The notes below the pieces were generated by a model. The model did no database searches and was not told where the DNA came from. It saw only the letters and a list, made by a program, of their open reading frames with translations. Below are positions 6,602-26,263 of a DNA stretch of 27,622 nt, in pieces (position 1 is the stretch's first letter; each line of letters opens with the position of its first letter). The stretch is from a virus: IMG/VR virus record IMGVR_UViG_3300005918_000102, positions 1 through 27,622 of that record. One strand, 5' to 3'. A program made the position numbers and the translations under genes.

Positions 6602-7528
6602 TTAGAGCATTCGGAACTTGAATTCGTCGTCGTCTCCGGTCAGCTCGGCTTCAATGTTGAATATGTTTATGCCGTCCCGGGTGTCCGGATTCACGGCCGT
6701 CAGCTGCGCGGCCGGCAGGCGGACTTTCACCTGGTTCCCGCTAACGCTGCCGATAGTGAATACCGTGGCAAATTCCGTGCTGGCCTTAAACAGGGTATAA
6801 AAGTTATTGGTCGCCAGCAGCACCGCCTCCGGATCCACACCGAACGTTCCTTCCCGCTTTGTGATCCGCAGGCCGTACAGTCCCTCGTCGCTATTCAGGT
6901 CCGGCACGCGGCTGATAACGTTCCCCAAATTGACGTTGATCGCCGAGGCCCGGGCTGCGTAGTCGTTGATCGTGAAAGTCATGCTTTCACAGATCGGCGG
7001 CAGCTCGTTGTTTGTGAATGTGGGCGTGGGCAGCGCCTGGTCCGACGGGTCATTGTACTTGCCCTGGAATTCAAAACTCAGTTTGGCAAATTCACCGGCC
7101 ACAACCGCCAGCTGGACATTGCCGACGCCGCCGGTCAGTTTGTATTCGATGCCGTCAAAATTGCATTCCATTGTCACGCTTCGGTCATTGGTCGCGTCGC
7201 TGACCGGGCTGTATTCTGCGTAGGTCGCGGTATAGTCAACCGTCAATCCGCAGGCGAGCATAATGGCATTGAATTCAGCGGGATCCGCAGCCGACGGAAC
7301 GCTGCCGTCTCCGCGTATGTCCACGTCGAATGTCACGGTATAAATGGTCTGGCCGATCCGGACTCCCGACGGGCTCTTGGTCCCCCGGTAATTATTCCGC
7401 TTCAGCGCATTGCCGCCCGGCACCACCCGCAGGTTGCTGATCAGAATGGCATCGGTCGGTCCGGGCGTGGCGTCCGTCCCGTAGCTGCTTTCGTTTGCCG
7501 CAACTAATACTGTGTTCTCTTCGTACAT
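6602..7528 (-). CDS. Major tail tube protein
   Basis: This 308-residue, beta-rich, acidic protein begins with MYEENTVLVAANESSYGTDA followed by a Pro/Thr stretch and ILISNLRVVPGG, the start typical of phage tail tube subunits. It contains the pattern TVTFDVDIRGDG, and ends with a beta-rich domain (NIFNIEAELTGDDDEF). Tube subunits stack as hexamers around the tape measure. It lies between the tail terminator-like gene and the chaperone genes, the usual place. AGGAG sits 7 bases upstream of the ATG in a 21-base gap. Confidence 0.87.
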   Translation of the reverse strand: MYEENTVLVAANESSYGTDATPGPTDAILISNLRVVPGGNALKRNNYRGTKSPSGVRIGQTIYTVTFDVDIRGDGSVPSAADPAEFNAIMLACGLTVDYTATYAEYSPVSDATNDRSVTMECNFDGIEYKLTGGVGNVQLAVVAGEFAKLSFEFQGKYNDPSDQALPTPTFTNNELPPICESMTFTINDYAARASAINVNLGNVISRVPDLNSDEGLYGLRITKREGTFGVDPEAVLLATNNFYTLFKASTEFATVFTIGSVSGNQVKVRLPAAQLTAVNPDTRDGINIFNIEAELTGDDDEFKFRML

Positions 7529-12665: not shown

Positions 12666-13222
12666 CAGATAATTTCTCCTCGCTTCCACGTCCACTTCGG
12701 ACCGTAGATGCAATAGATTGTGATCGTGACCGCCGTCAGTTTCATGCGCGAGATTTCGCGCTTGGCGATCGTCCGCGGATCCTTGGGCTTCATCCAGAAC
12801 CGGCGGCCGCCGCCCTTGCCGGGCGAGGCGGCTTTTGCCAGATTTTTCTTATGCCCGATATCGTCCCACTTGTCAAGCATCGATTTCCCGGCCGTGACTT
12901 CCGGCAGCTCCAGCTGCTCGGGCTCCGGTTCAGGTTCCGGCTTGATTTTCGTGGAATCGAATTCGCTATAGAGTTGGAGCAGCTCCGTTTGGTCCATAGA
13001 TTCCAGGTCGTCAGTTATCCCCATCCCCCGCATCTGATCGATAAATGCAGGCTTCGAAACATTCAGCGTCCACTCTTCCACGGCGGGCGCGGGGTTTTTC
13101 TTGATCGTGGTCTGGCATCTCTGGCAAAATTCCCCATCGGGCAGCGCATTACGGGTGCACTGATTTCCGCTCGCTTCAAAAATGCGTTTGCATTTCCGTT
13201 TTTCCTCTTTCTTCTTAGCCAT
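12665..13222 (-). CDS. Cys-rich hypothetical head-region protein
   Basis: The 185-residue protein begins with a Lys-rich segment and four Cys (residues 11, 22, 33, 36; CKRIF, QCTRN, FCQRC) that may form a small zinc site. An acidic Pro-Glu repeat (PEPEPEPE, about 96-103) follows, then MLDKWDDIGHKK and a Gly/Lys-rich basic stretch (PGKGGGRRFWMKPKDPRTIAKREISR). It is encoded between the MuF-like gene and the protease-capsid fusion with a strong ribosome site (GGAGG) and overlaps the fusion start. No known family recognised; mixed basic and acidic low-complexity sequence suggests a minor virion or assembly protein. Confidence 0.7.
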   Translation of the reverse strand: MAKKKEEKRKCKRIFEASGNQCTRNALPDGEFCQRCQTTIKKNPAPAVEEWTLNVSKPAFIDQMRGMGITDDLESMDQTELLQLYSEFDSTKIKPEPEPEPEQLELPEVTAGKSMLDKWDDIGHKKNLAKAASPGKGGGRRFWMKPKDPRTIAKREISRMKLTAVTITIYCIYGPKWTWKRGEII

Positions 13223-13237
13223 CGTATTTTCCTCCGG

Positions 13238-14182
13238 TCAACAGTTTGCGGCAAGGAGGTCGTTCTCCGCGAACGAATCCTCAGTATTAAAATATGGATT
13301 ACTGGCAAGGTCAATCTCGCTCGGCATTTTTAGGCTGTGCGTACATCCGCAATGAATCACTTCGCCAGCGTCTGCGTCCGGATCCCCCGGGTACAGTAGC
13401 AGCGCTTTGGTTTCCGGGTTTTCAAAAGCGTCGCCCATCGCCACGCTCGTTCCGTCCAGCATCACGTGCCCGGGCCTGGGTGTCTGTCCGGCTCCGAACA
13501 TCATTCCGTGATGCCATGTCTTTTCCGCCCCGGGTATAATTTGGGCGACCTGAAGTGATTGCAGGTGCAAAGCAAAGTTATTTATTTTCATGGTCTCGGT
13601 TCTGAAGATTCTCCACGCGGCCGAGTTGACGTTCCGGATTCCCCCGGCCTGTCCCTCCAGCGTCCCGCGCATAATCTTGCTGATCTTAACTATCGCGTCC
13701 GGGGCTCCCGTCTGCTGGATCATCGCCAGCTTTACCAGCTCATAAATCTCGGCCGCTGCCTCCTCTGTTACGCTCACGATCTGCGTCAGGCTCAAATCGA
13801 ATACGGCGCTTGTGAACGGGTCCATAAATACGGGGTTGAAATACGAGGCCGTCTGTGCGGTTGCAAATCTCACGTTATTGGTAAATGGTAGCAATACGTT
13901 TCGAACGCCCGCCTGTGCGCTCTGGTCCAGCGACGGGCCCAGCAGCTGTGCGTATTCCATGTTGAAATTCAGCAGAACCTTGTCCAGCTCGTCCCGGACT
14001 CGTCCGAAGTCCCGGTTTTTCCACGTGCTGGCCGGCAGCCTGTGCAGGGCGGCCGTCATATTGTCGCTGGCCGTCATAAGCAGCGCCTTGACTTGGTCGC
14101 TGTATCCGCGCAGAACGAATTCCGCGTCCTGCATCAGGGCGTTGACTTCCGCCATATAGGCTGCCTGTCTTTTGCTGGCCAT
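13238..14182 (-). CDS. MuF-like minor head protein (SPP1 gp7 / Mu F type)
   Basis: The 314-residue protein has helical N-terminal and middle regions and a C-terminal MuF signature: FRTETMKINNFALHLQ, then RPGHVMLDGTSVAMGDAF followed by LLLYPGDPDADAGEVIHCGC. MuF proteins associate with the portal and are injected or stabilise it. It starts on the portal stop (TAATG overlap). The conserved order portal, MuF, protease/capsid supports the call. Confidence 0.87.
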   Translation of the reverse strand: MASKRQAAYMAEVNALMQDAEFVLRGYSDQVKALLMTASDNMTAALHRLPASTWKNRDFGRVRDELDKVLLNFNMEYAQLLGPSLDQSAQAGVRNVLLPFTNNVRFATAQTASYFNPVFMDPFTSAVFDLSLTQIVSVTEEAAAEIYELVKLAMIQQTGAPDAIVKISKIMRGTLEGQAGGIRNVNSAAWRIFRTETMKINNFALHLQSLQVAQIIPGAEKTWHHGMMFGAGQTPRPGHVMLDGTSVAMGDAFENPETKALLLYPGDPDADAGEVIHCGCTHSLKMPSEIDLASNPYFNTEDSFAENDLLAANC

Positions 14183-15783
14183 TAGTCGTCTGCCTTCTGT
14201 TCGGCTTCGGGTTTGACTTTGCCAGCCGGTTCATTCTTAGCCGGTGCGCCCTTGCCGTCCTTGCCTTTCATCTCGAGCTTCAGCTGCTCGAGTTTGTCCA
14301 GCAGGTCCATGCCCTTTTTTAGTCCGAATTCATTATCCTGTCCGGGGGTTTCCGTGGATTCCGTCAGGTTCAATCCGTATTCGTTTGCGATTTTAACAAA
14401 TGAGGTTTTGGCGCTCTCGGGATCCACGCCGATCTGCTGCACGCCCATGACCAGAGCTTCCGCCAGTTTGCCCAGCACCTCGGCTGTCAGTTTGCGGTCG
14501 ACTCCGCTGACGCTCGGCAGTTCCCAATGGATTGCCTGTGTCATTTTGTATACATCGTCCTCGCTTGCGTTCGGCAGATATTGTTCTATCTGATAACGGG
14601 TCCGGTCCTCTAATATCATTTTGACCTGGCCCTGCTTGCGGATCAGCCGCTTCTCGATCGGCTGGCTTTGTTCCCGGGCGGTTGCTCGATTTGTGTTGTC
14701 GCCCGACACCACCCAGTGCTCGGGAATCCCGGCACCGGCAAGTGAAAATCGGGTGATCGTCCGGATGAAGGTTTCCGTGTCTGTCGACTTCAGGTCGGGC
14801 GTCATAAATTCCGCCTCAACGCGGTCGTTGCATACGAACACGGAGCTCACCCGGGGATCCGGCGGCGTGTATCTGGATACCTCTTCTTTGCTCGATCCCT
14901 TGAGTGTGATTTTCATAATGAAATGGTAAAGCAGCAGGCTTCGTTCTGCCACCTGAAATATGAATTGGTCCATCAGGTCCAGCGCATCCAGCATCGGCAT
15001 CAGCTCGCTGTAGCCGCGATTCTGCGACGGCAGCCGGTTGATCTGCCACAGGAAACACGGGGCAATATATTTGTTGCCTTCCATGCCCTTGCCTGATATC
15101 TGATCTGTTGAAACCCCCAGCCGTCCGTCGATGTCCTGCATCACTCCGTAGACGTAGCTTTCGTCCGAATAATCTTTGCTCTGCGGATCTGTATAAACCC
15201 GCCAGAAGCGTTTCTGATTCTCTGGGTTTCGATCGATGTTTGTCACCAGCCGGGGATCCACATGCCCGAACTTTACAACCCGGCTTTTCGTGGTCTCCGC
15301 CACCGGCTCTATCTTTTCGCCCAGCAGATTCAGTTCCTTGATTTCGGCTTCCAAATTACGGTTGAAGTTGTTGTCGTAATCGTGGACCATCCGCGTGATA
15401 ATCGGCTCGAGCGTCGCCTCGTATTCCTTGTCGATATGATACTTGATTTCGTCGCCCAATGCGAAGTCGGTCATCATCTCAATAATGCGTTTGGCGTATG
15501 GGTTGATGCTGAAGATTTCCACGCACTGTTTTTGTATCGTGCGCTTGTCCGTCAGGTTCATATCGAACCGGCCGGCATTGGCTTCGTGGTATCCGTCGCC
15601 GTCCTCGACGCCGTCGCTGAAATGGTATGCTGCTTCGTGCACGTCCGCCAGTCGCCGGGCGTATACGCCGCTTATCTTTTTGATGTCCTCGATTTGTGCC
15701 TGGGCGGTTTCCAGCTGGTACTGTTGTTCCTGAAGTAGCTGGTCGTATTCGCGGAGTTTCTTGGTTGTGGTCAGTCCGAGCAT
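14182..15783 (-). CDS. Portal protein
   Basis: This 533-residue protein has a coiled N-terminal helix (EYDQLLQEQQYQLETAQAQIE), the portal-type core INPYAKRIIEMMTDFALGDE, VDPRLVTNIDRNPENQKRFW, and the helical stem region SELMPMLDALDLMDQF, followed by a conserved MKITLKGSSKEE. The C-terminal end is rich in Lys/Pro/Ala (residues about 500-533) and probably disordered. The portal forms the dodecameric vertex through which terminase packages DNA. AGGGGG lies 7 bases before the ATG. It is the first gene of the head operon, after a 206-base gap that holds predicted promoters. Confidence 0.87.
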   Translation of the reverse strand: MLGLTTTKKLREYDQLLQEQQYQLETAQAQIEDIKKISGVYARRLADVHEAAYHFSDGVEDGDGYHEANAGRFDMNLTDKRTIQKQCVEIFSINPYAKRIIEMMTDFALGDEIKYHIDKEYEATLEPIITRMVHDYDNNFNRNLEAEIKELNLLGEKIEPVAETTKSRVVKFGHVDPRLVTNIDRNPENQKRFWRVYTDPQSKDYSDESYVYGVMQDIDGRLGVSTDQISGKGMEGNKYIAPCFLWQINRLPSQNRGYSELMPMLDALDLMDQFIFQVAERSLLLYHFIMKITLKGSSKEEVSRYTPPDPRVSSVFVCNDRVEAEFMTPDLKSTDTETFIRTITRFSLAGAGIPEHWVVSGDNTNRATAREQSQPIEKRLIRKQGQVKMILEDRTRYQIEQYLPNASEDDVYKMTQAIHWELPSVSGVDRKLTAEVLGKLAEALVMGVQQIGVDPESAKTSFVKIANEYGLNLTESTETPGQDNEFGLKKGMDLLDKLEQLKLEMKGKDGKGAPAKNEPAGKVKPEAEQKADD

Positions 15784-15818: not shown

Positions 15819-15846
15819 ATTGTGACACGGATTTTATGCCTGTCAA
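15819..15846 (-). promoter_or_regulatory. Putative promoter P2 before portal
   Basis: On the minus strand a perfect TTGACA (15846-15841) is followed after 16 bases by CACAAT (15824-15819, 4/6 to the -10). Predicted start near 15812, about 29 bases upstream of the portal ATG. The perfect -35 and short spacer make it a plausible constitutive sigma70-type promoter. Confidence 0.45.
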
Positions 15847-15989: not shown

Positions 15990-16217
15990 TTATTTTCCCA
16001 GCATTTTTCTAAAAGTTCTGTAATTTACGCCTAAATGCTGCGCTGCCCGTTTTCCGCTGCCTGCCCGCCGCAGGGCCGTCGTGGCGATCGCCCGGTCGAA
16101 GGATTCGCGCATCTGATAATAGACCGCGCCCTTGGGATAATTATCGATCGTATCGTCCAGCGATTCCTGCAGTTCGCCCTCAAACCGTTCTCTTGCTTTT
16201 GCCAATTTACGCTCCAT
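15990..16217 (-). CDS. Fis-type helix-turn-helix protein, putative late regulator
   Basis: This 75-residue basic protein has a C-terminal Fis-family HTH (about residues 47-74: ALRRAGSGKRAAQHLGVN then YRTFRKMLGK), matching the family pattern RAA..LG(I/V)..(R)T.RK(K/M)L. The N-terminal 45 residues are helical and could form the dimer interface; E. coli Fis has 98 residues, so this is a little shorter. Fis-type proteins bend DNA and act as activators or architectural factors. The start overlaps the end of the GT9 gene by 11 bases and has no clear Shine-Dalgarno site, so expression may be low or depend on read-through. It is the last gene before the head-operon regulatory gap, which holds a Fis-like site. 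A role as late-gene regulator is inferred. Confidence 0.75.
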   Translation of the reverse strand: MERKLAKARERFEGELQESLDDTIDNYPKGAVYYQMRESFDRAIATTALRRAGSGKRAAQHLGVNYRTFRKMLGK

Positions 16218-17367
16218 TTATATATATCCATTTAGGGCCATTGTTGATCTCCACCGTGATGTCGTTTCCTACTTTATTCAGGTTCTTGATCTGGTCGTCC
16301 GGTATGGTCCGCCAGTCCAGCGGCTTGACCATAATCCCTCCGGCCGTTGCCAGCGGAATGTCCACGATTTCCCGCTCTTCTTTTCGTTGCCTGCCTATGC
16401 CTCGGCCGAGATCGGGAGCGCCTGAAATCGGCATGATTTTATAGTCGGGCATTGAGGCTTTGCGCACGCCGTTCCACGGCTTGCCGGCCAGCGCGTCCTC
16501 GGCTGCGCGGATGATCTGCGTTGGCTCGTAACTTCCACATCGCCATTGGTCGCACGTCAGCCAGTTTCTGCTCAGGCACCAGTTGTGTTCCTGGCACGGG
16601 TAGCACTCAAGCGTCGGCGTGAAAATCGTGGCCGTCTTATGAAATGCCGGGTTGTAATTCTTCTGAACGGTCCCGGCGCAAAAAAGGGATATCGTTTGCA
16701 CGCCCACGGCGCAGGCGAAGTGGTATAGTCCGCTGTCGTTCGTGATAAACAGCTTGCATTTCGATATCAGATCAAACGTCTGGTCGATCCCGATTCCGGT
16801 CAGGTCTTTGCACGGGTATACGTATTCATCCGGCAGGCCCACGCTCGCTATTTTGCAATCCTTCAGCCCTTTCACTATTTCGGGATATCGCTGGTAGCGT
16901 TTGCGGATATAATTAAAATTATTGATTCCGCCGTTGCCGATCAGCACGTCATACGATTCGGGATCCGTGAATTTGTCTCCGCGTATCCGCCGCCAGTTCA
17001 TCGGCAGCGTCGGCTTGATCAATCCCAGGCCTGATTCGAATATCTGATTATAAAATGCCACCTCGTTTCCGGCGTGCGGAACCGTGTTCTGATAAAGCAC
17101 GGGGATGTCCCGGTACGGCACTCGCGTCAGGCTAATCGCCCCCTGATAATTTTTCTCATTCCACCACAGCGGTTTGTGCTGCTGATTCACCGGCGTCACG
17201 GTCGCGCCCTTGCTCTCGGCCAGGGCGGTCATGTATCCGCAAATGCCTTTCCGGTATTCGCCCATCGCTATATCGGTCGGTCCGTATTTGAGGCAGATTG
17301 CTTCGTAGCCTTCTGTCTGCTGGATCTGGTTTCCGAGTCCTGCTTTGGTGAAAAATATTACCTTCAT
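16207..17367 (-). CDS. GT9 (heptosyltransferase-like) glycosyltransferase with C-terminal extension
   Basis: The 386-residue protein starts at ATG 17367 (ATGA overlap with the previous gene; AAAGGCG about 7 bases before); the frame is open further upstream but that is low-complexity shadow sequence. It shows the GT9 C-terminal signature LFITNDSGLYHFACAVGVQ (NDSG at about 210-213), with the N-terminal Rossmann segment GLGNQIQQTEGY. Six Cys lie in a cluster after it (about 255-277; ECYPCQEHNWC, TCDQWRC). GT-B enzymes of this family transfer heptose or similar sugars. The last roughly 85 residues (from about 300) are not GT9-like and may be a separate domain. It is the last enzyme of the glycan block. 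Confidence 0.8.
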   Translation of the reverse strand: MKVIFFTKAGLGNQIQQTEGYEAICLKYGPTDIAMGEYRKGICGYMTALAESKGATVTPVNQQHKPLWWNEKNYQGAISLTRVPYRDIPVLYQNTVPHAGNEVAFYNQIFESGLGLIKPTLPMNWRRIRGDKFTDPESYDVLIGNGGINNFNYIRKRYQRYPEIVKGLKDCKIASVGLPDEYVYPCKDLTGIGIDQTFDLISKCKLFITNDSGLYHFACAVGVQTISLFCAGTVQKNYNPAFHKTATIFTPTLECYPCQEHNWCLSRNWLTCDQWRCGSYEPTQIIRAAEDALAGKPWNGVRKASMPDYKIMPISGAPDLGRGIGRQRKEEREIVDIPLATAGGIMVKPLDWRTIPDDQIKNLNKVGNDITVEINNGPKWIYINGA

Positions 17368-18377
17368 TTGTTCGCCTTTATAAATTCTTCCAGCATTTCC
17401 GAGAACCGGTTCCCCGTATACTCCAGTCGCACCCGCTCCTGCCCGCGCCTGGCCACGGCCTGTCGTTCGGGATCGTGTGTCAGCCAGTACTGGATTTTGT
17501 CCTGCAGCTCTTCCTTGGTTTTCCACGTGTCCAGATGCACGCCCGGCTTGAACAGCTCCTCGATGCCGTTCACGTGATCGGTCAGCATAAAGCCGCCCGC
17601 TGCCAGGCAGTTAATTACCCGCTCGTTCAGATATCGGTATCCGTCCGGCCGCACGTGCGAGTTCAGATTGATCTTGCTGGTCTTGTAAATGTGCGGCAGC
17701 TCCTCGGCTGCCCGCCATCCCCGGAACGTCGTTTGTGGCAGGCCGCCAACGCCGAACCATTCGCGGGGGAACTTGTCGTTCGGTCCGTAGATGTTCAGCG
17801 TCCCCAGCCCGGCCACGGCCTCCACGATTTCAGCCCTGCCCATAAGCACCTCGGGATATTCCGCCTTTGGGTAAAGGTTCGAACAGGCGAGCGAGATATC
17901 GCATCGCTCATCGTCAACCCTTCCCGATCGGAAATGCAGGAGGTCATGCGGCGGCGGGTACAAACAGATTGCGGGCGTGCCGATCTCTCTGTATTTTGCG
18001 ACCGATCCCTTGCAGCATGTTACGGCCAGATCGAACTCACTAGCTATGGTGGCCGCGTCATCGTTCTTGTCCATTTCAAAAGGATCGTCGATCGTATGGT
18101 ATATCTTCGGCACGATCTGTCCGCCGGCACAGCTGCGCATCATTTTCGCAAGCCCGTACTTGTAATCGTATTTGCAGTTGCTCCAGAATAAAATATCCGG
18201 CTCAAAGCAACCCCATGAATAGCAAATCAGCTCCTCGATATTCGCCAGCGGCCGGCCTTCCCTTTTACTGCTCCTGGTCGGTATGTGTAGCACCTCATGC
18301 CCGGCTGATCTGAATCCGTATTCAATGTTCTTGGTCGAGTCCGTTAGGTCTCGGCCGCCGCAGAGCAGAATCCTCAT
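17364..18377 (-). CDS. CgeB/GT4-like glycosyltransferase
   Basis: This 337-residue protein (ATG 18377, ATGA overlap with the GT-D gene; AAGGGA 6 bases upstream) starts with MRILLCGGRDLTD, a GT-B Rossmann start, then has a first half with YSWGCFEPDILFWSNCKYDY. The second half carries the family's C-terminal part: IYGPNDKFP, TFRGWRAAEELPHIYKTSKI, LNERVINCLAAGGFML and HVNGIEELFKPGVHLDTW, as in CgeB/YkvP-type group 1 transferases (an E-x-G-type donor-binding segment). Soluble GT-B enzyme; donor and acceptor unknown. The frame is open upstream (residues MAAKRNGKKH) but the ATG chosen has overlap and ribosome site. Confidence 0.8.
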   Translation of the reverse strand: MRILLCGGRDLTDSTKNIEYGFRSAGHEVLHIPTRSSKREGRPLANIEELICYSWGCFEPDILFWSNCKYDYKYGLAKMMRSCAGGQIVPKIYHTIDDPFEMDKNDDAATIASEFDLAVTCCKGSVAKYREIGTPAICLYPPPHDLLHFRSGRVDDERCDISLACSNLYPKAEYPEVLMGRAEIVEAVAGLGTLNIYGPNDKFPREWFGVGGLPQTTFRGWRAAEELPHIYKTSKINLNSHVRPDGYRYLNERVINCLAAGGFMLTDHVNGIEELFKPGVHLDTWKTKEELQDKIQYWLTHDPERQAVARRGQERVRLEYTGNRFSEMLEEFIKANK

Positions 18378-19102
18378 GTGGTTTCCCTTATGTTTTTTAC
18401 CATTTCTTTTTGCTGCCATTCCTTGGTCCGGTAGCGCTTGCGGTTATACAGCCCGACGTACGGATCGAAGCAGGCTCCCATGTCCAGCATAACCGGCGCG
18501 GCGTCGCCCATAATTATCAGCAGGTCGTGCATTACCAGATTTGTGGCGAAGCCCGCTGCGAAGCAAATCACGTCTGCCTCCTGTGCGTAGGGCAGGCATT
18601 GCTTCGTGATTTCCGCCGCGTTATAGACGGCGTCCGTTATGTGGACTTTGACAAACCATTCCGGGTGAACGATCTCCAGCTTGCTCAGGTGCGGTCCGCC
18701 CACCAGAAGCACCCGCTTCTGATTCAGCGCATTAAATAACGGCGCGATATATCCGTTGCAGTTTGCGGCCGAGATGGTTTCCTTGTAAACCCACGGCAGG
18801 CGCTGCATGCCGTTTCGCATCTGGTAATCGTATACGTCGCCGTCCAGATTCGGCCCGCAGTTGAATCCGAAAAAGGTGAAGCACGGATTTGTCAGCGTCT
18901 TTTCCAGCTGCTTGCCTATGTCGCCGGCCATCGGCACGCCATCGCTGTTGATCTTGCCGTCGCCGCGTACGATCGAGCTCCACTCGCCGTCCCCGTAGTT
19001 CGCCTGGCTGAACGGCCAGCTCTCTTCCACGGCGTCCACGTAATCCTTGAAATCGATTGTAAACCATTGGCACCGGAGTCTTTTTCCTCTGCTCTGCTTC
19101 AT
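18374..19102 (-). CDS. GT-D type glycosyltransferase-like protein (DUF1792-related)
   Basis: The 242-residue protein has the GT-D hallmark ANYGDGEW at residues 35-41 (the YGDGE/RFGDGE motif that binds metal-nucleotide sugar), and a C-terminal Rossmann-like part: VLLVGGPHLSKLEIVHP, then VICFAAGFATNLVMHDLL and MLDMGACFD. GT-D enzymes add sugars to serine-rich adhesins or similar acceptors. The start overlaps the radical SAM stop by ATGA and the gene runs into the GT4-like gene the same way. N-terminal residues are basic (KQSRGKRLRCQ). Assignment is by motif; donor and acceptor unknown. Confidence 0.7.
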   Translation of the reverse strand: MKQSRGKRLRCQWFTIDFKDYVDAVEESWPFSQANYGDGEWSSIVRGDGKINSDGVPMAGDIGKQLEKTLTNPCFTFFGFNCGPNLDGDVYDYQMRNGMQRLPWVYKETISAANCNGYIAPLFNALNQKRVLLVGGPHLSKLEIVHPEWFVKVHITDAVYNAAEITKQCLPYAQEADVICFAAGFATNLVMHDLLIIMGDAAPVMLDMGACFDPYVGLYNRKRYRTKEWQQKEMVKNIRETT

Positions 19103-20394
19103 TGGTTTTCCTTAAATAAAATGCGGAACTTTCGTTTTTTCCACCACTTGTATATCCGCCGGTACAGCCCGTCCAGCGGCAGGCTAATAAGTAGCCGGGT
19201 AAACGGTCGCAGGACCGGCCAGCTCGCTATGATCGACGTCAGCTTCTGCAGCCGGTTGATCTTATGCTTGAGCGGAGTGTTCAATATTGTCCGGTCAAAG
19301 AACGTGTCGCTGAACGCCTCGGTCTTGCCGTCCCATAGTCCTTGCTCGATGCAGTAGTCCGCTATTTTGCATTTGGGGTATGGCTGAAAGATCGACGCCC
19401 ATACCAGCTCCGGCCGGCACGCGATATTCAGGTCCAGAGTTTCCAGCATCTGGTCAAGCGTTTCGTTCGGCAGCCCCACCATATTCTCGGTCCGGAATTT
19501 CAGGCCGTGCCGGTGCAGGATCTCGCATCCTGCCAGTATTGTTTCCTTGCTCATCTTGCGGCTCAGCAGCTGCGTCCGGATTTCGTCGTTCCCGCTTTCG
19601 ACCGCAAAGGTCACGCCCGTGCATCCGGCATGCACGAGAAGCTCGGCCGTCTCGTCCGTCAAAAGCTCGATCCGGATCTGGCAATGGAAGTCCACGCCGA
19701 CATTATCGGCATATTTAACGAGCAGCTCCTCGAGGTTCGGGTTTGCCAGAAACTCGTCGTCCTGGAAATAGATCATTTTCAGCGGGTAGCGTTTGAGGTC
19801 CGTGCATTCGTCTATCACGTGGTCGACCGCCCGGTGCCGTACCCAGCGCTGGCCTTTGTATATTTTCCGGTATGTGCTGTTGAAACAATACGGGCAGTTG
19901 TATGGGCAGCCCCGGCTGGTCATCACGTTCTTGATCGGGTTCAGATAGTTATTGGCGTCCTCATATAAAAAGTCGCGGTCCGGAGGCTCGATGTCGTCAA
20001 TGTGCTGCAGCGCCACCGGTTCAATAACGCCTTTGATCGGATTCTCCAGCCAGTCAATAAATGATTGCTCGGCCTCTCCGCGTATGATCGTGTCCACGCC
20101 GTCATCTTCAATGAATTCCGGATAAAGCGTCGGGTGCGGTCCGCCCCATACGCTGGGGATCCGGTACGTGGTGGTGATCGTCCTGTGCGCTTCCAGCATG
20201 GTCCGGTGCTGCCCGGTCGTCACCGAATAGGCCAGAAAGTCCGGGTCGTATACTTCTATCTGTGGATGGAAAAGCCCGTCCTTGATGCTCAGCCATTGCG
20301 CCCTGTGCCCGGCGCGTTTCAGGGCGGCCGCCAGATAGGCAATGCCCAGCGGTTCTATAATAAACGGTTCAACAATAAATAGTATTTTGCTCAT
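19099..20394 (-). CDS. B12-binding radical SAM enzyme
   Basis: The 431-residue protein has a cobalamin-binding type N-terminal domain (about 1-140; AYLAAALKRAGH, WGGPHPTLYPE) and a radical SAM domain beginning MTSRGCPYNCPYC with the 4Fe-4S cluster Cys at 163, 167, 170 (CxxxCxxC). Further landmarks are FAVESGNDEIRTQLLSR and MVGLPNETLDQM. Class B radical SAM enzymes of this kind typically methylate unactivated carbon (or do other radical chemistry) on sugars, natural products or other metabolites. It is co-transcribed with three further SAM methyltransferases and four glycosyltransferases. C-terminal 60 residues are basic and aromatic (RRIYKWWKKRKFRIL). Substrate unknown. Confidence 0.87.
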   Translation of the reverse strand: MSKILFIVEPFIIEPLGIAYLAAALKRAGHRAQWLSIKDGLFHPQIEVYDPDFLAYSVTTGQHRTMLEAHRTITTTYRIPSVWGGPHPTLYPEFIEDDGVDTIIRGEAEQSFIDWLENPIKGVIEPVALQHIDDIEPPDRDFLYEDANNYLNPIKNVMTSRGCPYNCPYCFNSTYRKIYKGQRWVRHRAVDHVIDECTDLKRYPLKMIYFQDDEFLANPNLEELLVKYADNVGVDFHCQIRIELLTDETAELLVHAGCTGVTFAVESGNDEIRTQLLSRKMSKETILAGCEILHRHGLKFRTENMVGLPNETLDQMLETLDLNIACRPELVWASIFQPYPKCKIADYCIEQGLWDGKTEAFSDTFFDRTILNTPLKHKINRLQKLTSIIASWPVLRPFTRLLISLPLDGLYRRIYKWWKKRKFRILFKENQ

Positions 20395-21047
20395 GGTTTT
20401 TCCAGCATAAAGATTCGGTTGATATAATGGACTTGCCCGTCGCAGGCTTGCGGCACTTCCTGATATGATTTGAATGCAAAGCCCGCGTGCCGGGCTATCT
20501 CGATCATGGTTTCAATCGACGGCATGAATAAATGCGCTTTCATGTTTCCCAACCGCGTGGGCTTCGGCCTCTGCAGGCCCGTGTAGCCGTCCGCGTTGGG
20601 CAGAACGATCATCAGCTGCCCTTGGGCCTCCATAACCCTAAAGATCTCACACAGGGCGATGTAGGGCGCTGGGCTGTGCTCTAAAACGTGGGAAGCGAAC
20701 ACGATTTCGAATTTGCCGGTCCACTCGGCTGGCATCCCGTGCATATCGACGCGCTCGACCGCTGCTCCCGGGGCGTTTGCCCGGATCTCCCGTGCCTCCT
20801 CGCCGAATATGGTTATGGCCATCACGGTCTCTTCCGATCCGTACCGCTCGACCAGCTGCCGGGTCTCCCATCCGCAGGCCGGGCCAATGTCCAGCACTTT
20901 CGGGAAGTCAAGTATTCCCCAGCCGACGTTCGGCAGCATTTCAATAATTGCCTGCTTGTTTTTGAACAGGCTGGCGCTCCGGTCGATCCGATCGGGGATT
21001 CCCTCGTTGATGTCCGGGCTCGGCTGGTAATATTTACTGAGGTCCAT
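20391..21047 (-). CDS. Class I SAM-dependent methyltransferase A
   Basis: The 218-residue protein has motif I VLDIGPACGWETRQLV (residues 51-66), the acidic/post-I region AITIFGEEAREIR, and motif II/III VERVDMHGMPAEW, FEIVFASHVLEHSPAPYIAL, and QGQLMIVLPNADGY. This is the Methyltransf_11/23-type fold used for small molecules and sugars. The gene overlaps the previous one by 14 bases and the next by 4. Substrate unknown, but the glycan context suggests O- or N-methylation of a sugar or linker. Confidence 0.8.
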   Translation of the reverse strand: MDLSKYYQPSPDINEGIPDRIDRSASLFKNKQAIIEMLPNVGWGILDFPKVLDIGPACGWETRQLVERYGSEETVMAITIFGEEAREIRANAPGAAVERVDMHGMPAEWTGKFEIVFASHVLEHSPAPYIALCEIFRVMEAQGQLMIVLPNADGYTGLQRPKPTRLGNMKAHLFMPSIETMIEIARHAGFAFKSYQEVPQACDGQVHYINRIFMLEKP

Positions 21048-21615
21048 GCTTGTTCCCCTTCCGTATCTGGATTCCGGTCTCGTGATCGGGCCGGAAGTTA
21101 TATTCCTTTATGTCTCCGCTGACTGTCACCTCGTGTGTCTGGTCCTTTGCGAACGCGTCGGCCGCCAGCTGGACCAATGACTCGATATCATACGCCCATT
21201 TGTGCGTCTCCTCGTGTATCGCCCAGTTCAGCCGATCGGCCAGCGTCGGTCCGGGCCAGATTTCCTTGTCCGCCCCGAGGTGCTTCTTTCTCAGAAAGGC
21301 CTCGTCGTGATTAACGTATGCCGTGGCCAGCAGTCGCAGGTCCGGGCAGGTCACGGTCATGCACGCCCCGGGCTTCAGCAGTTCGAACGCCCGCTGCAGT
21401 AATATGATTCCCTCCGGCCTGGTCAGATGCTCGATAATGTGCAGGGCTATAATCTCGTCCATGCTGTTCGGTCCCCACGGCAGTTTGTCCGTCACGAAAT
21501 TCAGCTTATAATACGGCGCCGGGTTGTCCACCGGTTTCGGCCAGATATCTATTCCGGCAAAGCCCGGCCGGCGGCATCCGCGGCCGCCGCATCCGATATC
21601 AAGTTTTCTTGGCAT
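21034..21615 (-). CDS. Class I SAM-dependent methyltransferase B
   Basis: The start is ATG 21615 with an exact AGGAGG 6 bases upstream; the longer frame from 21639 is not supported. The 193-residue protein has motif I KLDIGCGGRGCRRPGF at its very start (residues 4-19), so it lacks the usual N-terminal cap, then IDIWPKPVD, MDEIIALHIIEHLTRPEG and KPGACMTVTCPDLRLLAT. It resembles small predicted SAM-dependent methyltransferases seen in glycan gene clusters. The C-terminal end is basic (KGNKHGPQ). Substrate unknown. Confidence 0.75.
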   Translation of the reverse strand: MPRKLDIGCGGRGCRRPGFAGIDIWPKPVDNPAPYYKLNFVTDKLPWGPNSMDEIIALHIIEHLTRPEGIILLQRAFELLKPGACMTVTCPDLRLLATAYVNHDEAFLRKKHLGADKEIWPGPTLADRLNWAIHEETHKWAYDIESLVQLAADAFAKDQTHEVTVSGDIKEYNFRPDHETGIQIRKGNKHGPQ

Positions 21616-22321
21616 TGTTTTCCTCCTGTTCAAATACAAAATTGTCGCCCTTGATTCTCTCTGCTGTGTATCCGTGCTGTCTGAGAATCAAGCAGACCTG
21701 TGGAACGTTATTCGGCGCAACCTCCGCCACGATAACCGGCCGGTCGCGTTCTATCAATTCCGCTGCTCCGGTTATGGCCTCCGCTTCCATTCCCTCGATG
21801 TCAATCTTGATCAGTCCGATCGGCGGCTTGCCCGCTATGGCCCACTCCACGTCCAGCGGCCGCACGATCGTCCGTCTGAATCCCGTCACGGTTTTCGAGT
21901 AGCGCATCGTGTCCGTCATTATCATCGTGGAGGCTCCGAGGTTTCGCCGCTCGTCCGCGTAAATATTGCAGATCGGGGAATACATAATCTTCTGCCTGTC
22001 GCCTATGGCACACCGGCGGACCGTTATATTCGTCTTGTCGTTCAGCCATATGTTCGCTTTTAATAGCTGGCAGATTTCCCTGGTCGGCTCGTATGCAATG
22101 ACATGGCCGAACGCCCGGGCCATGCTGATCGTGTGATATCCAAAGCACGCCCCGAGATCGATTGCCGTCTTTTGGCCGTCCGCATATTTGGCAATGGCCG
22201 TGCGTACCCACGGCTCCGGGTTCCCACTCTTGACCAGCTCGCTCACCCGCTCGTTCTCGAACACGATAAAGGCTCCGAGCTCATTCCTGCAAATCTGCCG
22301 CTCTGGTTTATCGGTATTCAA
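21599..22321 (-). CDS. FkbM-family methyltransferase
   Basis: The 240-residue protein has the FkbM-type features: TAIDLGACFGYHTISMAR (about 52-69), VIAYEPTREICQLLKANIWLN, and the characteristic LIKIDIEGMEAEAITGA near residue 175, followed by RPVIVAEV. FkbM enzymes O-methylate hydroxyls of sugars or polyketides. The start is TTG 22321 with AAGGGA 7 bases upstream and overlaps the previous gene by 14 bases. No in-frame ATG is available before the SAM motif, so TTG is preferred. Confidence 0.85.
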   Translation of the reverse strand: MNTDKPERQICRNELGAFIVFENERVSELVKSGNPEPWVRTAIAKYADGQKTAIDLGACFGYHTISMARAFGHVIAYEPTREICQLLKANIWLNDKTNITVRRCAIGDRQKIMYSPICNIYADERRNLGASTMIMTDTMRYSKTVTGFRRTIVRPLDVEWAIAGKPPIGLIKIDIEGMEAEAITGAAELIERDRPVIVAEVAPNNVPQVCLILRQHGYTAERIKGDNFVFEQEENNAKKT

Positions 22322-23027
22322 ATTTGATTCCCTTCCGGTACTCTTCGTCCCACACCTTTTTCCCCAGCCCGCCGCCGTAGTGCATCAGCACCGGGTCCGT
22401 TATCTTGTTGTATTCCTTGAATTTAATGGTCAGCGTATAGGCGCATCGCTCATGCGGCAGCAGCCACGGGTCCAGGTCTTTGCCGTACATTTGCTTCCAC
22501 GCGTAAACCGCCATGTTCAGCGCAAACATAGTTCCCTTCCGGTGCTCGCTGCTGGTCTCTCGCATGTCCCGCCACAGGTCAAAGAATTTGTGCGTCCTGC
22601 TGTTGACGCGGAAGCCCAGCGGTGATGCTAGGTATTTCTGGTCCGGCTCCACGCCTAAAATCCGCTTGACCAGCGGCATCTCGACCGTCACGTCGTGGTG
22701 CATCGGCACGGTCGTCATCGATAGCTCGTGGCGCATCATTTCCACGAACGGGAATCCCTCGAATAGCACGATGTCCGTGTCAAAGAATAATACCTGATCG
22801 CCCTTTTGAAAGAAGCTGTCAAGCTCCAGCTTCAGCCACCGGCTGTCCATGAATTCCCGGGTTTTGTAATTGGCCTCCGCGTGCCGGATCTCGCAGTTCG
22901 CGTATAGGCCACGGTCCTTGGTTATCACCACGATCGGCCCGCGCCATCCTGCTGCCCGGACCGAATAAACGAACCGGTATAGGTATTTCGAGTATCGGAT
23001 ATCGGCGATCGTGCAAACGCATTCCAT
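22308..23027 (-). CDS. GT-A type glycosyltransferase with DxD motif
   Basis: The 239-residue protein has the layout of nucleotide-diphospho-sugar transferases: MECVCTIADIRYSKYL, WRGPIVVITKDRG, and QVLFFDTDIVLFEGFP with DTD at about 83-85 (the metal-binding DxD). A second half with LMHYGGGLGKKVWDEEY carries a His-Gly segment as in GT8-like enzymes. It starts on a TAATG overlap with a good AGGAAG ribosome site. First enzyme of the glycan block after the small genes. Donor and acceptor unknown. Confidence 0.75.
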   Translation of the reverse strand: MECVCTIADIRYSKYLYRFVYSVRAAGWRGPIVVITKDRGLYANCEIRHAEANYKTREFMDSRWLKLELDSFFQKGDQVLFFDTDIVLFEGFPFVEMMRHELSMTTVPMHHDVTVEMPLVKRILGVEPDQKYLASPLGFRVNSRTHKFFDLWRDMRETSSEHRKGTMFALNMAVYAWKQMYGKDLDPWLLPHERCAYTLTIKFKEYNKITDPVLMHYGGGLGKKVWDEEYRKGIKFEYR

Positions 23028-23356
23028 TATTTCTTCCTGCCAAATGAGTGTGAGTTTATCGCCGGTCCGTCGCTGTCCCCCTGGTCGTCCGTTTTAGGTA
23101 TCTGCCCGAATCCGTCATATGGGTTTTTGCTTTTGTCCGGGGTCTCCATAAACTTTACGTCAGATGGGTTATTTCCGTAGCGCTTTTTCTCTTCGGGCTG
23201 GATCTCCAGCACCCGGGTGTCATAGCCTTTCGTCCGCATTCCGCACAGCCATGCCAGCCCGCCCAGCAGCGCAAACGGCGCGGCTACAAGCATCATAATT
23301 GCTCCGATTATTCCGGCGATTCCCAGCCCCACGATTCTCCAGTATTTTCTCCACAT
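23027..23356 (-). CDS. Small membrane protein
   Basis: The 109-residue protein has a hydrophobic stretch (about residues 8-39; WRIVGLGIAGIIGAIMMLVA then PFALLGGLAWLCG) that could form one long or two short membrane helices, followed by a polar acidic tail with Gly/Pro/Asp repeats (QIPKTDDQGDSDGPA). It overlaps both neighbours by one base (TAATG). No family recognised. Such small membrane proteins between terminase and head genes have no fixed role. Confidence 0.65.
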   Translation of the reverse strand: MWRKYWRIVGLGIAGIIGAIMMLVAAPFALLGGLAWLCGMRTKGYDTRVLEIQPEEKKRYGNNPSDVKFMETPDKSKNPYDGFGQIPKTDDQGDSDGPAINSHSFGRKK

Positions 23357-23835
23357 TACTTTTCCTTTCTTGTTTCATTGGTTTTGGGATTCGGCAGTTC
23401 GATCAGCGTCGTGCCGCATTCCGGGCAGGCCGACTGGCCCGGGAATGCAAAGCCCTCCAGGCATTCCGTGTCCGGGCAGATGTGCGTCAGGCCCAGATCG
23501 TGGCTTAACAGTTCCGGCCAGTGCACGCCCCGGACTTTCATGCCGAAGAACAGCGTGGCTTTGCTTTCCGGGAATGAATTGGCCAGCGATCGCTGCAGCG
23601 CCCTCTGCTTCTCGATCGGCATCGGCTCGTCGACGATAATCGCGTCGACCGCGTTCGCGTCCAGAAAATTCCCGTTAAGGTTCACAACCTGGAACTTCTC
23701 GTGGCCGGTTATGCTTCGATAGGCTGCCCCGCATTCCCGGCACGTGCTCACCAGAAACGAGTCCCCCTCGTGTTCGCCAGTCAATATCCGTTCATGACTG
23801 TACTCAAGCTCCGCGCATTCACATTTCTTATCCAT
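23356..23835 (-). CDS. Zinc-ribbon hypothetical protein
   Basis: The 159-residue protein has a Cys-rich start (KKCECAELEYSHERIL, then STCRECGAAYR) and a second cluster near the end (HICPDTECLEG, SACPECGTTLIELP). The CxxC pairs suggest two zinc sites, and the final CPECG is a typical zinc-ribbon knuckle. The middle (VVNLNGNFLDANAVDAIIVD) is Rossmann-like in look but not diagnostic. No known function recognised; zinc-ribbons of this kind are common in phage packaging and transcription proteins. Confidence 0.7.
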   Translation of the reverse strand: MDKKCECAELEYSHERILTGEHEGDSFLVSTCRECGAAYRSITGHEKFQVVNLNGNFLDANAVDAIIVDEPMPIEKQRALQRSLANSFPESKATLFFGMKVRGVHWPELLSHDLGLTHICPDTECLEGFAFPGQSACPECGTTLIELPNPKTNETRKEK

Positions 23836-24106
23836 TCGGCTTCTCCTTTTTCCGTGGCCCGTTATCGATGTCGTCCCAGCTGTCCAGTATTTTCTGTACC
23901 GGGTTGGGTTTGTCCCGCTGCTCCATGTAGCGAGTGGTCGCTCCGGCTGTCGGAGCCAGCGGCATGGCTCCGCTTTTCTCGAACTGCTCGATCACCCGCC
24001 GCATGTCATCCCGGCCGCCGCTGTTGTCCGGGAGCTTTACCTCGTGGAATCCAATGTGTGCTTTGCGGCGTCTGAGTTTTGCCCACAGCCATTTGAATAT
24101 TCTCAT
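23828..24106 (-). CDS. Small hypothetical protein with basic N terminus
   Basis: The 92-residue protein starts MRIFKWLWAKLRRRKAHIGF, an amphipathic basic and aromatic helix, and ends with NPVQKILDSWDDIDNGPRKKEKP. The ATG overlaps the previous stop (ATGA). No family recognised. The ILDSWDDI stretch (73-80) is nearly repeated in the head-region 185-residue protein (MLDKWDDI, 115-122). Confidence 0.6.
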   Translation of the reverse strand: MRIFKWLWAKLRRRKAHIGFHEVKLPDNSGGRDDMRRVIEQFEKSGAMPLAPTAGATTRYMEQRDKPNPVQKILDSWDDIDNGPRKKEKPNG

Positions 24107-24387
24107 TTTTCGTTCCTTCTCAGATAGTCCTGGATAATCCGTTCGGCAGTTTCCTTCTGGTCCTCGCCCACGATCAGGCTGCTGGGATCCGGCCGCTGCA
24201 GGGTCCGGACCTGGCTTTCCAATATCTGCACCCGCTTGGTCAGCCGATCGACCGCCTCGGCCAGCTCGGCTATCTTGACCTTGTCGCCTTTAAAGAATTC
24301 CGGCCGGCTGTCCTTGAGGTCCATGTGGAGCTTGTCCGGCAGCTCCTCGGGATTGCCCTGAAATTTGAAATCGCTGTTTTCTGGCAT
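24103..24387 (-). CDS. Small coiled-coil hypothetical protein
   Basis: The 94-residue protein is acidic at the start and has a heptad-like coiled coil (IAELAEAVDRLTKRVQILES, then QVRTLQ; about 41-68) and a helical end (ETAERIIQDYLRRNEK). It follows the large terminase directly (one base gap, ATGA into the next gene). A small terminase partner role is possible but not shown, since small terminases usually precede the large subunit. Confidence 0.6.
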   Translation of the reverse strand: MPENSDFKFQGNPEELPDKLHMDLKDSRPEFFKGDKVKIAELAEAVDRLTKRVQILESQVRTLQRPDPSSLIVGEDQKETAERIIQDYLRRNEK

Positions 24388-24388
24388 G

Positions 24389-26263
24389 CTATCTCCTTCC
24401 GCGTTTGTTCAGCCCGCCGACCGTCCGGGGTTTCAGGATCCCGAAGCCCGTGGTCTGCATCGCATTGTAGTTCTGCATCCGCCGCTGCTTTGAATTTATC
24501 TCGTCCGGGCCCATGCCGTCCCGCTTGTCCTGCTCCAACATCAGGCCGAGGTCGTCATATAATACGGGCTCCCGGCCTTCCATCCAGGCCAGCATATCAA
24601 ACGCATCGGCGAACCGGAAGTGGTCCTTGCCCTCGACTTTGCTCCAGCGGTATCGCTCCTCGTCCTTAACCAGCACCTTGGTCAGGCTCTCCATGCTCTC
24701 CAGCCAGAAGCCGTCCTGAAAATCCTCATAGCCCTGTGGCACAATCACCTTCCGCTGCTGCCACATTTTATGGCTTTCGCTCAGCAGCCAGTCCCGGTCG
24801 ACCGTCATAATGTCGTGCTCTTCGTCCAGCGCCCAGCCGGTCAGCCGTAGCTTGTTCGCCTGTCCCTGCCGGCCGCCGGTTATGCGCACCAGTATCACGC
24901 GGGTCGCGCCCGACATATTGCTCTGAAATTCCAGCGCCGGGTTTGTTTCGGGCTGGCTATCGATCGCGGCGGTCGTCACGTTAAACCGCTCGAATACGCT
25001 GGCCACCTCATTCCAGCTTTCGCAGCGCAGGGTGCTGAGAATCATCTTGCGTCGCGGGCTGCCCTCTTTCGAGCTCACCGATAGGCTGATCTGCACATCG
25101 TAATGCTTGCCCACATCCACTCCGGCCGAGGTCTCGCATTTGCTGTAGCTTTCGAATCGCGTGTATTTCTGTACGCAGTTTTCTATCAGCTCCCGTGTTA
25201 CCTGTGCCCCGCTTCCGCTGTATTCCAATCCGAGGCGGCTGTTAAAGAATAGCTGTATCTCCTCGTCGTTCCCCTCGGCCGCCAGCAGCTCCCGCCATAG
25301 GTCCGCCAGCGTGGCGTTCAATTTCATCATCTGCGAGATCTCGTATCCGCTGCGCCGGTGTCCGGGATTCGTGGCTATCCATTTGCCGCCGTACCGTTTG
25401 GTCTTTCCCTTGGTCGTCCATTTATTCCGGTCCTGCATTTTCTTGCACAGCGGGCATCTCATCAGCACGTCGCGGTTTGATTTCTCGCTCCACTCGGTAT
25501 CGTATAGCTTGTAGCTGATATGGTTGCCCTCGGCGTCGTGCTTTTCCTCCACGACCGTCTCAAAGAAATCGGCCTTGAAAAATTCCTTGCATTTGCTGCA
25601 CTTGTAATGCCAGACCTTCTGATCGGTGTTCACGAATTCCTTGGCTATGCCGGTATTCGGCACCGTCGGGTTGCCCAGCAGCCGCCACAGCTTGTACGGG
25701 CTGTTCTGCATGCGGTCGCTGGCCTTCTTTATATTCGTCTGGTTGCATTCGTCCAGCTCCTCGATCACCACCATGTCTGCCGGGAACGATTTGAATCCCG
25801 ATGATGAATTTGAGGCCGTGATGCACCAGCGGCCTGCTCCCATTGTCCGCATGTAGCGGTTTCGGCCTTTCTTCTTTTCCGTCTTTTCCAGCCGGGCGTA
25901 TTCCGGGACCGTATCGCACAGCGGGTCCATGCGGTCCTCAAAGAATTTGTTCTTATCCGTGTCCGTGGGAAATACGTGAAAAACCTTCAGCCCTACTTTC
26001 AGGGCCGCCACGATATCAACCGTTGCTTCCTCAGTCTTGCCCGTCTGCACGCTGGATTTCATCACCACCTCGGCGGCGGCGTCCTGGAATATTTTCATCA
26101 TATACGGCATGTCGTCAAAGGTCATGCGCTTGCCGCTGGTATTCCTGTGGTGCTTCTGGAACAGGTTCAGCCGTTCCTTCTTTATCGCCTGCAGGATCAG
26201 CTTCCGCTTGCGGGCGTCTATCGGGATCTCGTCCTCGTTAGAGCGTTCTAAATTTTCGGCCAT
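24389..26263 (-). CDS. Phage terminase large subunit (GpA family)
   Basis: The 624-residue protein shows the GpA family pattern: Walker A SSVQTGKTE at 70-78, Walker B DMVVIEELDE at about 163-172, a zinc ribbon with CSKC (221/224) and CPLC (269/272), and the nuclease core beginning AGVDVGKHYDV near residue 390 with a candidate catalytic Asp. The motor translocates DNA into the prohead through the portal and cuts it. The gene starts 26 bases inside the end of the methyltransferase gene. The 3' end has a Gly/Lys/Arg tail. The ATPase and zinc-ribbon motifs make this a firm call. Confidence 0.95.
   Translation of the reverse strand: MAENLERSNEDEIPIDARKRKLILQAIKKERLNLFQKHHRNTSGKRMTFDDMPYMMKIFQDAAAEVVMKSSVQTGKTEEATVDIVAALKVGLKVFHVFPTDTDKNKFFEDRMDPLCDTVPEYARLEKTEKKKGRNRYMRTMGAGRWCITASNSSSGFKSFPADMVVIEELDECNQTNIKKASDRMQNSPYKLWRLLGNPTVPNTGIAKEFVNTDQKVWHYKCSKCKEFFKADFFETVVEEKHDAEGNHISYKLYDTEWSEKSNRDVLMRCPLCKKMQDRNKWTTKGKTKRYGGKWIATNPGHRRSGYEISQMMKLNATLADLWRELLAAEGNDEEIQLFFNSRLGLEYSGSGAQVTRELIENCVQKYTRFESYSKCETSAGVDVGKHYDVQISLSVSSKEGSPRRKMILSTLRCESWNEVASVFERFNVTTAAIDSQPETNPALEFQSNMSGATRVILVRITGGRQGQANKLRLTGWALDEEHDIMTVDRDWLLSESHKMWQQRKVIVPQGYEDFQDGFWLESMESLTKVLVKDEERYRWSKVEGKDHFRFADAFDMLAWMEGREPVLYDDLGLMLEQDKRDGMGPDEINSKQRRMQNYNAMQTTGFGILKPRTVGGLNKRGRR

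Follow-up and report, generated by a model that had tools for sequence, protein, structure and literature searches.

A cassette of eight co-directional genes, located between the terminase and portal genes of the viral record IMGVR_UViG_3300005918_000102 of IMG/VR (positions 16207-23027, minus strand), encodes predicted sugar transferases, methyltransferases and a radical S-adenosylmethionine (SAM) enzyme. On balance, we read this cassette as a virion-glycosylation module, whose products would place a methylated glycan on a protein of the virus particle. This reading is strengthened by the recurrence of such cassettes in the head modules of phages whose terminases, portals and capsids belong to different families. 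We also propose, more tentatively, that in several unrelated lineages of uncultivated phages repeated head-operon cassettes of the B12/radical SAM and GT-D/GT9 types may serve to cover capsids or tails with glycans that are O-methylated, C-methylated or deoxygenated as well, and in relatives also sulfated, forming a widespread class of coat unseen in isolated phages. The window analysed here is the entire record, a linear metagenomic contig fragment of 27,622 bases that comprises late genes and lacks the early ones.

The eight cassette genes

The predicted enzyme set consists of four sugar transferases (the GT-A-like one being tentative), three SAM methyltransferases and one B12/radical SAM enzyme. 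From the terminase side, the genes are:

22308..23027, minus strand: GT-A-like glycosyltransferase (tentative); PF03407 E 0.0077, below cut-off; DTD motif at residues 83-85
21599..22321, minus strand: FkbM-type methyltransferase, TTG start; PF05050 1e-14, TIGR01444 3.6e-22, phrog_8156 1.9e-24
21034..21615, minus strand: MT1, class I SAM methyltransferase, start revised to 21615; PF13489 5e-4, below cut-off
20391..21047, minus strand: MT2, class I SAM methyltransferase; PF08241 2.5e-9
19099..20394, minus strand: radical SAM enzyme with B12-binding domain; PF04055 (Radical_SAM) 2.7e-27, PF02310 (B12-binding) 1.9e-14; CxxxCxxC at residues 163-170
18374..19102, minus strand: GT-D-fold glycosyltransferase; DGE motif at residues 38-40, structure model; no Pfam match on the window protein
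17364..18377, minus strand: CgeB/GT4-like glycosyltransferase, start revised to 18377; PF13524 (Glyco_trans_1_2) 3.7e-28
16207..17367, minus strand: GT9 heptosyltransferase-type glycosyltransferase, start revised to 17367; PF01075 4.3e-11, PDB 1PSW (heptosyltransferase II) 1.6e-4

All eight overlapping open reading frames (ORFs) described in an earlier interpretation, made from the nucleotide sequence alone (the sequence-only reading), are indeed present at these positions. Its enzyme calls are mostly backed by Pfam and by a structure model: five enzymes (FkbM, MT2, radical SAM/B12-binding, CgeB/GT4-type and GT9) score above the curated Pfam cut-offs, whereas MT1 and the GT-A-like protein stay below them. 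MT1 is 43-47% identical to a methyltransferase of the head-module cassette found in two related loci, L010 and L023 (43% in L023), and this homologue itself matches PF08241 at 2e-10. The GT-A assignment remains tentative, as the single-sequence structure model of the protein has a predicted local distance difference test (pLDDT) value of 31, and hhalign (probability 3%) does not support its membership in the GT-A family of other phage cassettes. The GT9 protein belongs to PF01075 (43 bits, cut-off 22), but scores 39.3 bits against the 134.6 required for the equivalogs TIGR02193/TIGR02195 (lipopolysaccharide (LPS) heptosyltransferases I/II). Its similarity to the GT9-like proteins of the phage GT-D cassettes is only weak (probability 33%, E 5e-4), but after profile iteration it lies nearer to the GT9 protein of locus L044.

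In the radical SAM protein the N-terminal B12-binding domain, the radical SAM core and the cluster motif are all present. No curated equivalog scored above its own cut-off; cobalamin binding and a methyl or deoxy product are predicted. The closest solved structure is that of AprD4 (PDB 6FD2; 2.2e-18, with a match spanning only residues 154-363), a deoxygenating diol dehydratase of apramycin biosynthesis that acts on a sugar-bearing pseudodisaccharide, while GenK and GenD1 are B12-domain radical SAM enzymes that C-methylate sugars (PMC5461906). The sequence of the window enzyme is compatible with either deoxygenation or C-methylation.

Genes for a flippase, polymerase, lipid-carrier transferase, ligase or acyltransferase were not found in the cassette by inspection of the ORF list and Pfam searches. 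The earlier statement that a membrane anchor is lacking is correct as far as the eight enzymes are concerned; the product of o109, the ORF immediately upstream, nevertheless has a hydrophobic stretch of 36 residues.

The placement between terminase and portal genes was confirmed with PHROGs, although four small ORFs and a Fis-like ORF (15990-16217) share this interval. The eight genes are translationally coupled: neighbours share 4-17 bases at each junction, and the first gene overlaps the preceding o109 by 1 base. A plausible ribosome-binding stretch precedes most of the genes; the revised starts of MT1 (21615), CgeB (18377) and GT9 (17367) each have a Shine-Dalgarno-like stretch ahead of them and are better than the mechanical ORF starts. 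Codon usage of the cassette correlates with that of the structural genes at r = 0.969 (0.94-0.96 for random halves of the structural genes), GC content is even along the window, GC content at third codon positions (GC3) resembles that of the structural genes, and all reading frames are intact. Such codon usage and even GC content make it improbable that bacterial DNA was joined on, and the cassette belongs to the phage.

The nearest sequenced relative of the portal, head-morphogenesis and capsid proteins is Microcystis phage Mae-JY22 (27-29% identity). In its genome a gap of 58 bases, devoid of sugar genes, separates a terminase-like gene from the portal gene. Since the Mae-JY22 terminase has no detectable homology to that of the window, this phage is best described as a cassette-free relative, and not as a strict empty site. 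The lack of a cassette in the closest capsid/portal relative fits an accessory module.

Related cassettes in uncultivated phages

The GT-D assignment was examined together with 12 viral relatives; the structure model of the protein is confident (pLDDT 90.5). In a Foldseek comparison with the PDB its sole significant match was 4PHR, a DUF1792 protein with manganese (E 3.4e-5, probability 1.00, template modelling (TM) scores 0.60/0.53). Two relatives match the GT-D-like family PF22882 (best 1.4e-5), while the window protein matches neither PF08759 nor PF22882; the acidic DGE (DxE) motif is invariant in 13 of 13 GT-D sequences. According to the model the window enzyme has the DUF1792 fold; it represents a separate phage subfamily, with approximately 15% identity to the 4PHR protein.

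Relatives of this protein, identified by a scan for the motif NYGDGEW followed by an alignment search, occur in 12 other virus records (26-36% identity over full-length alignments; L032 is a partial match of 23%), where the GT-D genes sit in sugar cassettes. Eight of the 12 are placed inside the head module. In three of these (L011, L027 and L029), as in the window, the cassette lies exactly between PHROG-confirmed terminase and portal genes. In L021 and L026 it is found past the portal and head-morphogenesis genes, ahead of the scaffold/capsid or protease/capsid genes; in L028 it immediately follows the portal gene, in L031 it precedes the portal gene (its upstream end lying beyond the contig) and in L023 it separates capsid and tail genes. 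The L022 cassette is located upstream of the terminase gene. Several terminase families are represented among the records (phrog_38, phrog_2, phrog_15, phrog_3717 and phrog_675), and the GT-D cassettes therefore do not derive from one phage lineage.

Of the 12 other records, 9 contain matches to the GT9 family and 7 contain sulfotransferase matches. Sulfotransferase-family genes were noted in cassettes within or beside the head modules of L021, L023, L026, L011, L028 and L031, which suggests that the glycans predicted for these relatives are sulfated. Some further genes were identified by eye only: NAD epimerase-like (L011), NeuB/NeuA-like (L039/L045) and pyruvyltransferase-like (L029).

A first motif for the radical SAM protein was too specific (0 matches), and a looser one recovered its relatives. 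The nearest of them are viral: L044 (48% identity), L045 (41%), L035 (37%), L046 and L047 (both 36%); bacterial relatives reach 37% and belong to Chloroflexota, Fermentibacterota and other, mostly uncultivated, groups. In the phylogenetic tree the window, L044 and L045 proteins form a virus-only clade (support 99/97), while those of L046 and L047 occupy other branches, which implies more than one entry of such genes into phages.

The genes for four of these five viral relatives (L044, L046, L047 and L035) are part of structural modules and lie close to the major capsid gene. In L044 the protease, capsid and connector genes are followed by sugar genes (two GT4, GT9, methyltransferase, radical SAM, GT2, LicD and cytidylyltransferase) and then, immediately, by a phrog_290 tail gene, of the same family as the tail protein encoded at 6602-7528 of the window, and the tape measure gene. 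L046 has the order terminase, portal, capsid, radical SAM, a second radical SAM-like gene, methyltransferase and GT9, L047 the order terminase, portal, capsid, radical SAM and a GT8-GT9 fusion, and L035 the order capsid, methyltransferase and radical SAM at the end of the contig. Loci L056 and L076 resemble these four by homology. As head genes fill much of a phage genome, closeness of radical SAM genes to them says little in itself; more telling is that these genes are repeatedly combined with those for methyltransferases and GT9 proteins.

Several of the radical SAM loci encode apparent fusion proteins: GT8-GT9 (L047:11930-13639), methyltransferase-GT9 (L056:11185-13557) and, on another viral contig, radical SAM-methyltransferase (L108:6548-8602). 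A virus record of 293 kb (L111:10001-13026) carries adjacent homologues of the radical SAM, FkbM and GT-D genes, three types that are also present in the window.

A set of exactly these eight genes turned up nowhere else, either in the sequence searches or in the literature searched, but related cassettes recur in head modules. Divergent relatives escape the pattern-based searches, and the related contigs are fragmentary. A search of IMG/VR with exact 8-residue patterns of the window terminase, GT-D and MT1 yielded no confirmed relatives, these patterns being too strict. Among the 50,697 phage records of INPHARED there was no genuine match (E 1e-5) to the radical SAM, CgeB or GT-D genes. Two weakly matching records from human faeces, labelled 'Bacteriophage sp.' (MT837051.1 and MT837491.1; L003 and L004), carry ribosomal-protein, nusG, folD-like and glutamine-synthetase-like genes and were rejected as bacterial contigs on account of these housekeeping genes. 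A spring-water phage (MW202462.1, L002:6007-7072) encodes a 'mannosyltransferase' and an FkbM methyltransferase approximately 1.5 kb upstream of its terminase gene, a pair that is possibly a minimal version of the same theme.

Proposed virion glycosylation and other explanations

Under the interpretation that we favour, the cassette would be expressed late and its enzymes would act in the cytoplasm. One transferase would place the first sugar, taken from host nucleotide-sugar pools, on a Ser/Thr residue of an abundant virion protein (a capsid, head decoration or tail protein), and the remaining transferases would extend the glycan. FkbM, MT1 and MT2 would then O-methylate it, and the radical SAM enzyme would C-methylate or deoxygenate a sugar carbon. 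The finished glycan may shield the particle, or alter its sticking to cells and surfaces. Candidate acceptors predicted in the window are the head protein-protease fusion (9738-12713) and the phrog_290 tail protein (6602-7528).

Cassettes of this general kind are known from mycobacteriophages. Corndog and its relatives (cluster O) encode an O-methyltransferase, two glycosyltransferases and an N-acetylglucosamine (GlcNAc) transferase (gp35-gp38) between the portal and protease genes; the proteins are made in infected cells and went undetected in twice-banded virions (PMC4351075). Later publications (PMC11600133; Freeman et al. 2023, cited therein; PMC12619734) describe such enzymes as modifying the capsid and the tail tube. 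The window cassette likewise combines methyltransferase and several glycosyltransferase genes placed among head genes in the same direction. It differs, judging by gene descriptions, in having eight genes between terminase and portal instead of four between portal and protease, and GT-D, GT9 and CgeB-type transferases, FkbM and B12/radical SAM enzymes are not reported for Corndog in the literature examined. Thus, the claim that no such system had been described is true of the exact set, but not of the kind. What is new is that the cassette contains radical SAM, GT-D and FkbM genes and that the theme recurs among uncultivated phages.

The founding GT-D enzyme (dGT1, DUF1792, PDB 4PHR) adds a sugar to the growing O-glycan on the adhesin Fap1 (PMC5063993). 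The window GT-D protein resembles dGT1 in its predicted fold and acidic motif. It is unlike the Fap1 system in its low identity, and neither a serine-rich repeat (SRR) adhesin nor accessory secretion genes were seen. We favour a protein-linked glycan because of this role of the founding enzyme, because the cassette has no lipid-carrier, flippase or polymerase genes, and because Corndog-type phages are reported to have modified capsids and tail tubes. The sequence-only proposal of virion glycosylation thereby gains strong comparative, if indirect, support from the recurring head-module position, the Corndog precedent and the GT-D role.

Several observations weigh against it. The head operon could be merely a permissive insertion site, and in L025, L030 and L032 the GT-D gene is not in the head module. 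The binomial probability of the 8/12 count is approximately 0.01 if head modules make up 30% of the genome and 0.06 if they make up 40%, a rough guide only, as this share is assumed. Furthermore, bacterial relatives of the radical SAM, GT9, FkbM and CgeB genes co-occur with surface-glycan-type genes, and GT9 is a heptosyltransferase family. The glycosyltransferases of pelagimyophages have been proposed to alter the host O-antigen (PMC7029224).

These last points suit an alternative in which the enzymes remodel the host surface, adding or methylating sugars of the LPS, the capsule or some other glycan of the host, and so exclude competing phages or keep new virions off cell debris. The sugar-supply genes of several phage-borne relatives (NeuB/NeuA-like in L039/L045, LicD with a cytidylyltransferase in L044) also agree with it. 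We nevertheless consider this rather unlikely. The cassette contains no flippase, ligase, acyl- or lipid-carrier transferase, and its coupling to the terminase genes (see below) implies late expression, when a change of host surface pays least. This alternative does not predict recurrence in head modules, and a scan of 84,980 prokaryote genomes with two short patterns recovered no member of the GT-D family. The host-recognition clusters of pelagimyophages and cyanomyophages do resemble the window in their multi-gene glycosyltransferase sets and variable radical SAM cassettes, but they lie beside tail-fibre genes of large myophages and are rich in GT8 and deoxysugar genes (PMC7029224), in contrast to the compact insertion in a siphovirus-like head operon found here.

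Hypermodification of DNA, in which the transferases and methyltransferases would decorate modified genome bases just ahead of packaging by the terminase, is improbable. PMC12619734 cites phage glycosyltransferases that decorate DNA with diverse glycans. The position beside the packaging genes would suit the timing, and a DNA methyltransferase gene is found directly upstream of the terminase gene. Judging by its DPLY/DPFAGSG motifs, we take this enzyme to be of the N4/N6 amino-methylating type, as opposed to a C5 or hydroxymethyl one. Among the ORFs of the window, a late-gene fragment, we recognised no genes of the base-hydroxymethylase, TET or thymidylate-synthase-like types, and we know of no FkbM, CgeB or heptosyltransferase-type enzymes acting on DNA.

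Finally, the sequence-only reading had itself named misassembly with bacterial flanking DNA as a possible refutation; although the window is a metagenomic contig fragment, such a join, or a degraded passenger, is hardly credible in view of the codon usage and GC3 match, the overlapping junctions on both sides, the intact frames and the similar cassettes at similar positions in independent contigs.

In the literature examined, glycosylation of tailed-phage virions is described for actinobacteriophages, where it affects recognition by antibodies. If virion glycosylation is the correct reading, its recurrence in unrelated uncultivated phages would make a glycan coat of their own a common strategy of phages, and GT-D, radical SAM and (in relatives) sulfotransferase enzymes would be newly added to this process. 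The frequency and purpose of glycosylated phage particles thus become testable questions.

Flanking genes and operon edges

The recognisable genes of the window are all on the minus strand, in a tailed-phage arrangement: DNA methyltransferase, large terminase, four small ORFs, the cassette, the Fis-like ORF and portal, followed by head morphogenesis, the protease-capsid fusion, connectors, tail protein, tape measure and tail-tip genes. The main features outside the cassette are:

24389..26263, minus strand: large terminase (TerL), upstream anchor of the insertion; phrog_675 E 1.7e-70
23027..24387, minus strand: four small ORFs (o94, o92, o159, o109) between terminase and cassette; ORF list, overlaps
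23027..23356, minus strand: o109, adjoining the cassette upstream with a 1-base overlap; hydrophobic stretch at residues 5-40 (hydropathy)
15990..16217, minus strand: small Fis/helix-turn-helix (HTH)-like protein, 75 amino acids, overlapping the end of the GT9 gene; PF02954 6.7e-4 (below cut-off), phrog_10100 1.8e-4
15819..15846, minus strand: promoter-like site (TTGACA-16-CACAAT) within the 206 nt that precede the portal gene; consensus scan alone
14182..15783, minus strand: portal, downstream anchor of the insertion; phrog_10963 7.9e-18, 27% identity to the Mae-JY22 portal (E 1e-34)
9738..12713, minus strand: major head protein fused to head protease; phrog_4523 1.7e-60
6602..7528, minus strand: tail protein of the phrog_290 family; phrog_290 1.7e-17

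A chain of close junctions extends from the terminase gene through the Fis-like ORF, and the 206-nt gap before the portal gene is the only large gap at the edges. As this gap contains the promoter-like site, coupling of the cassette looks clearer with the terminase genes than with the portal genes, which may have their own start of transcription. For the portal side, the case for the proposed co-transcription is weaker than the sequence-only reading had it. The promoter-like site is a consensus match only, the scan of the region having returned 10 sites against 7.0 expected.

None of the four small ORFs matched a PHROG, and o109 had no relatives among the related loci that were fetched. The Fis/HTH-like protein, encoded at the cassette-portal boundary next to the promoter-like site, is possibly a late regulator. 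A canonical -1 slippery heptamer (A AAA AAC; 6105-6111, minus strand) was noted close to the end of the ORF at 6096-6506; past it the -1 frame is open up to the start of the tape measure gene, as expected for the programmed frameshift of tail-assembly chaperones.

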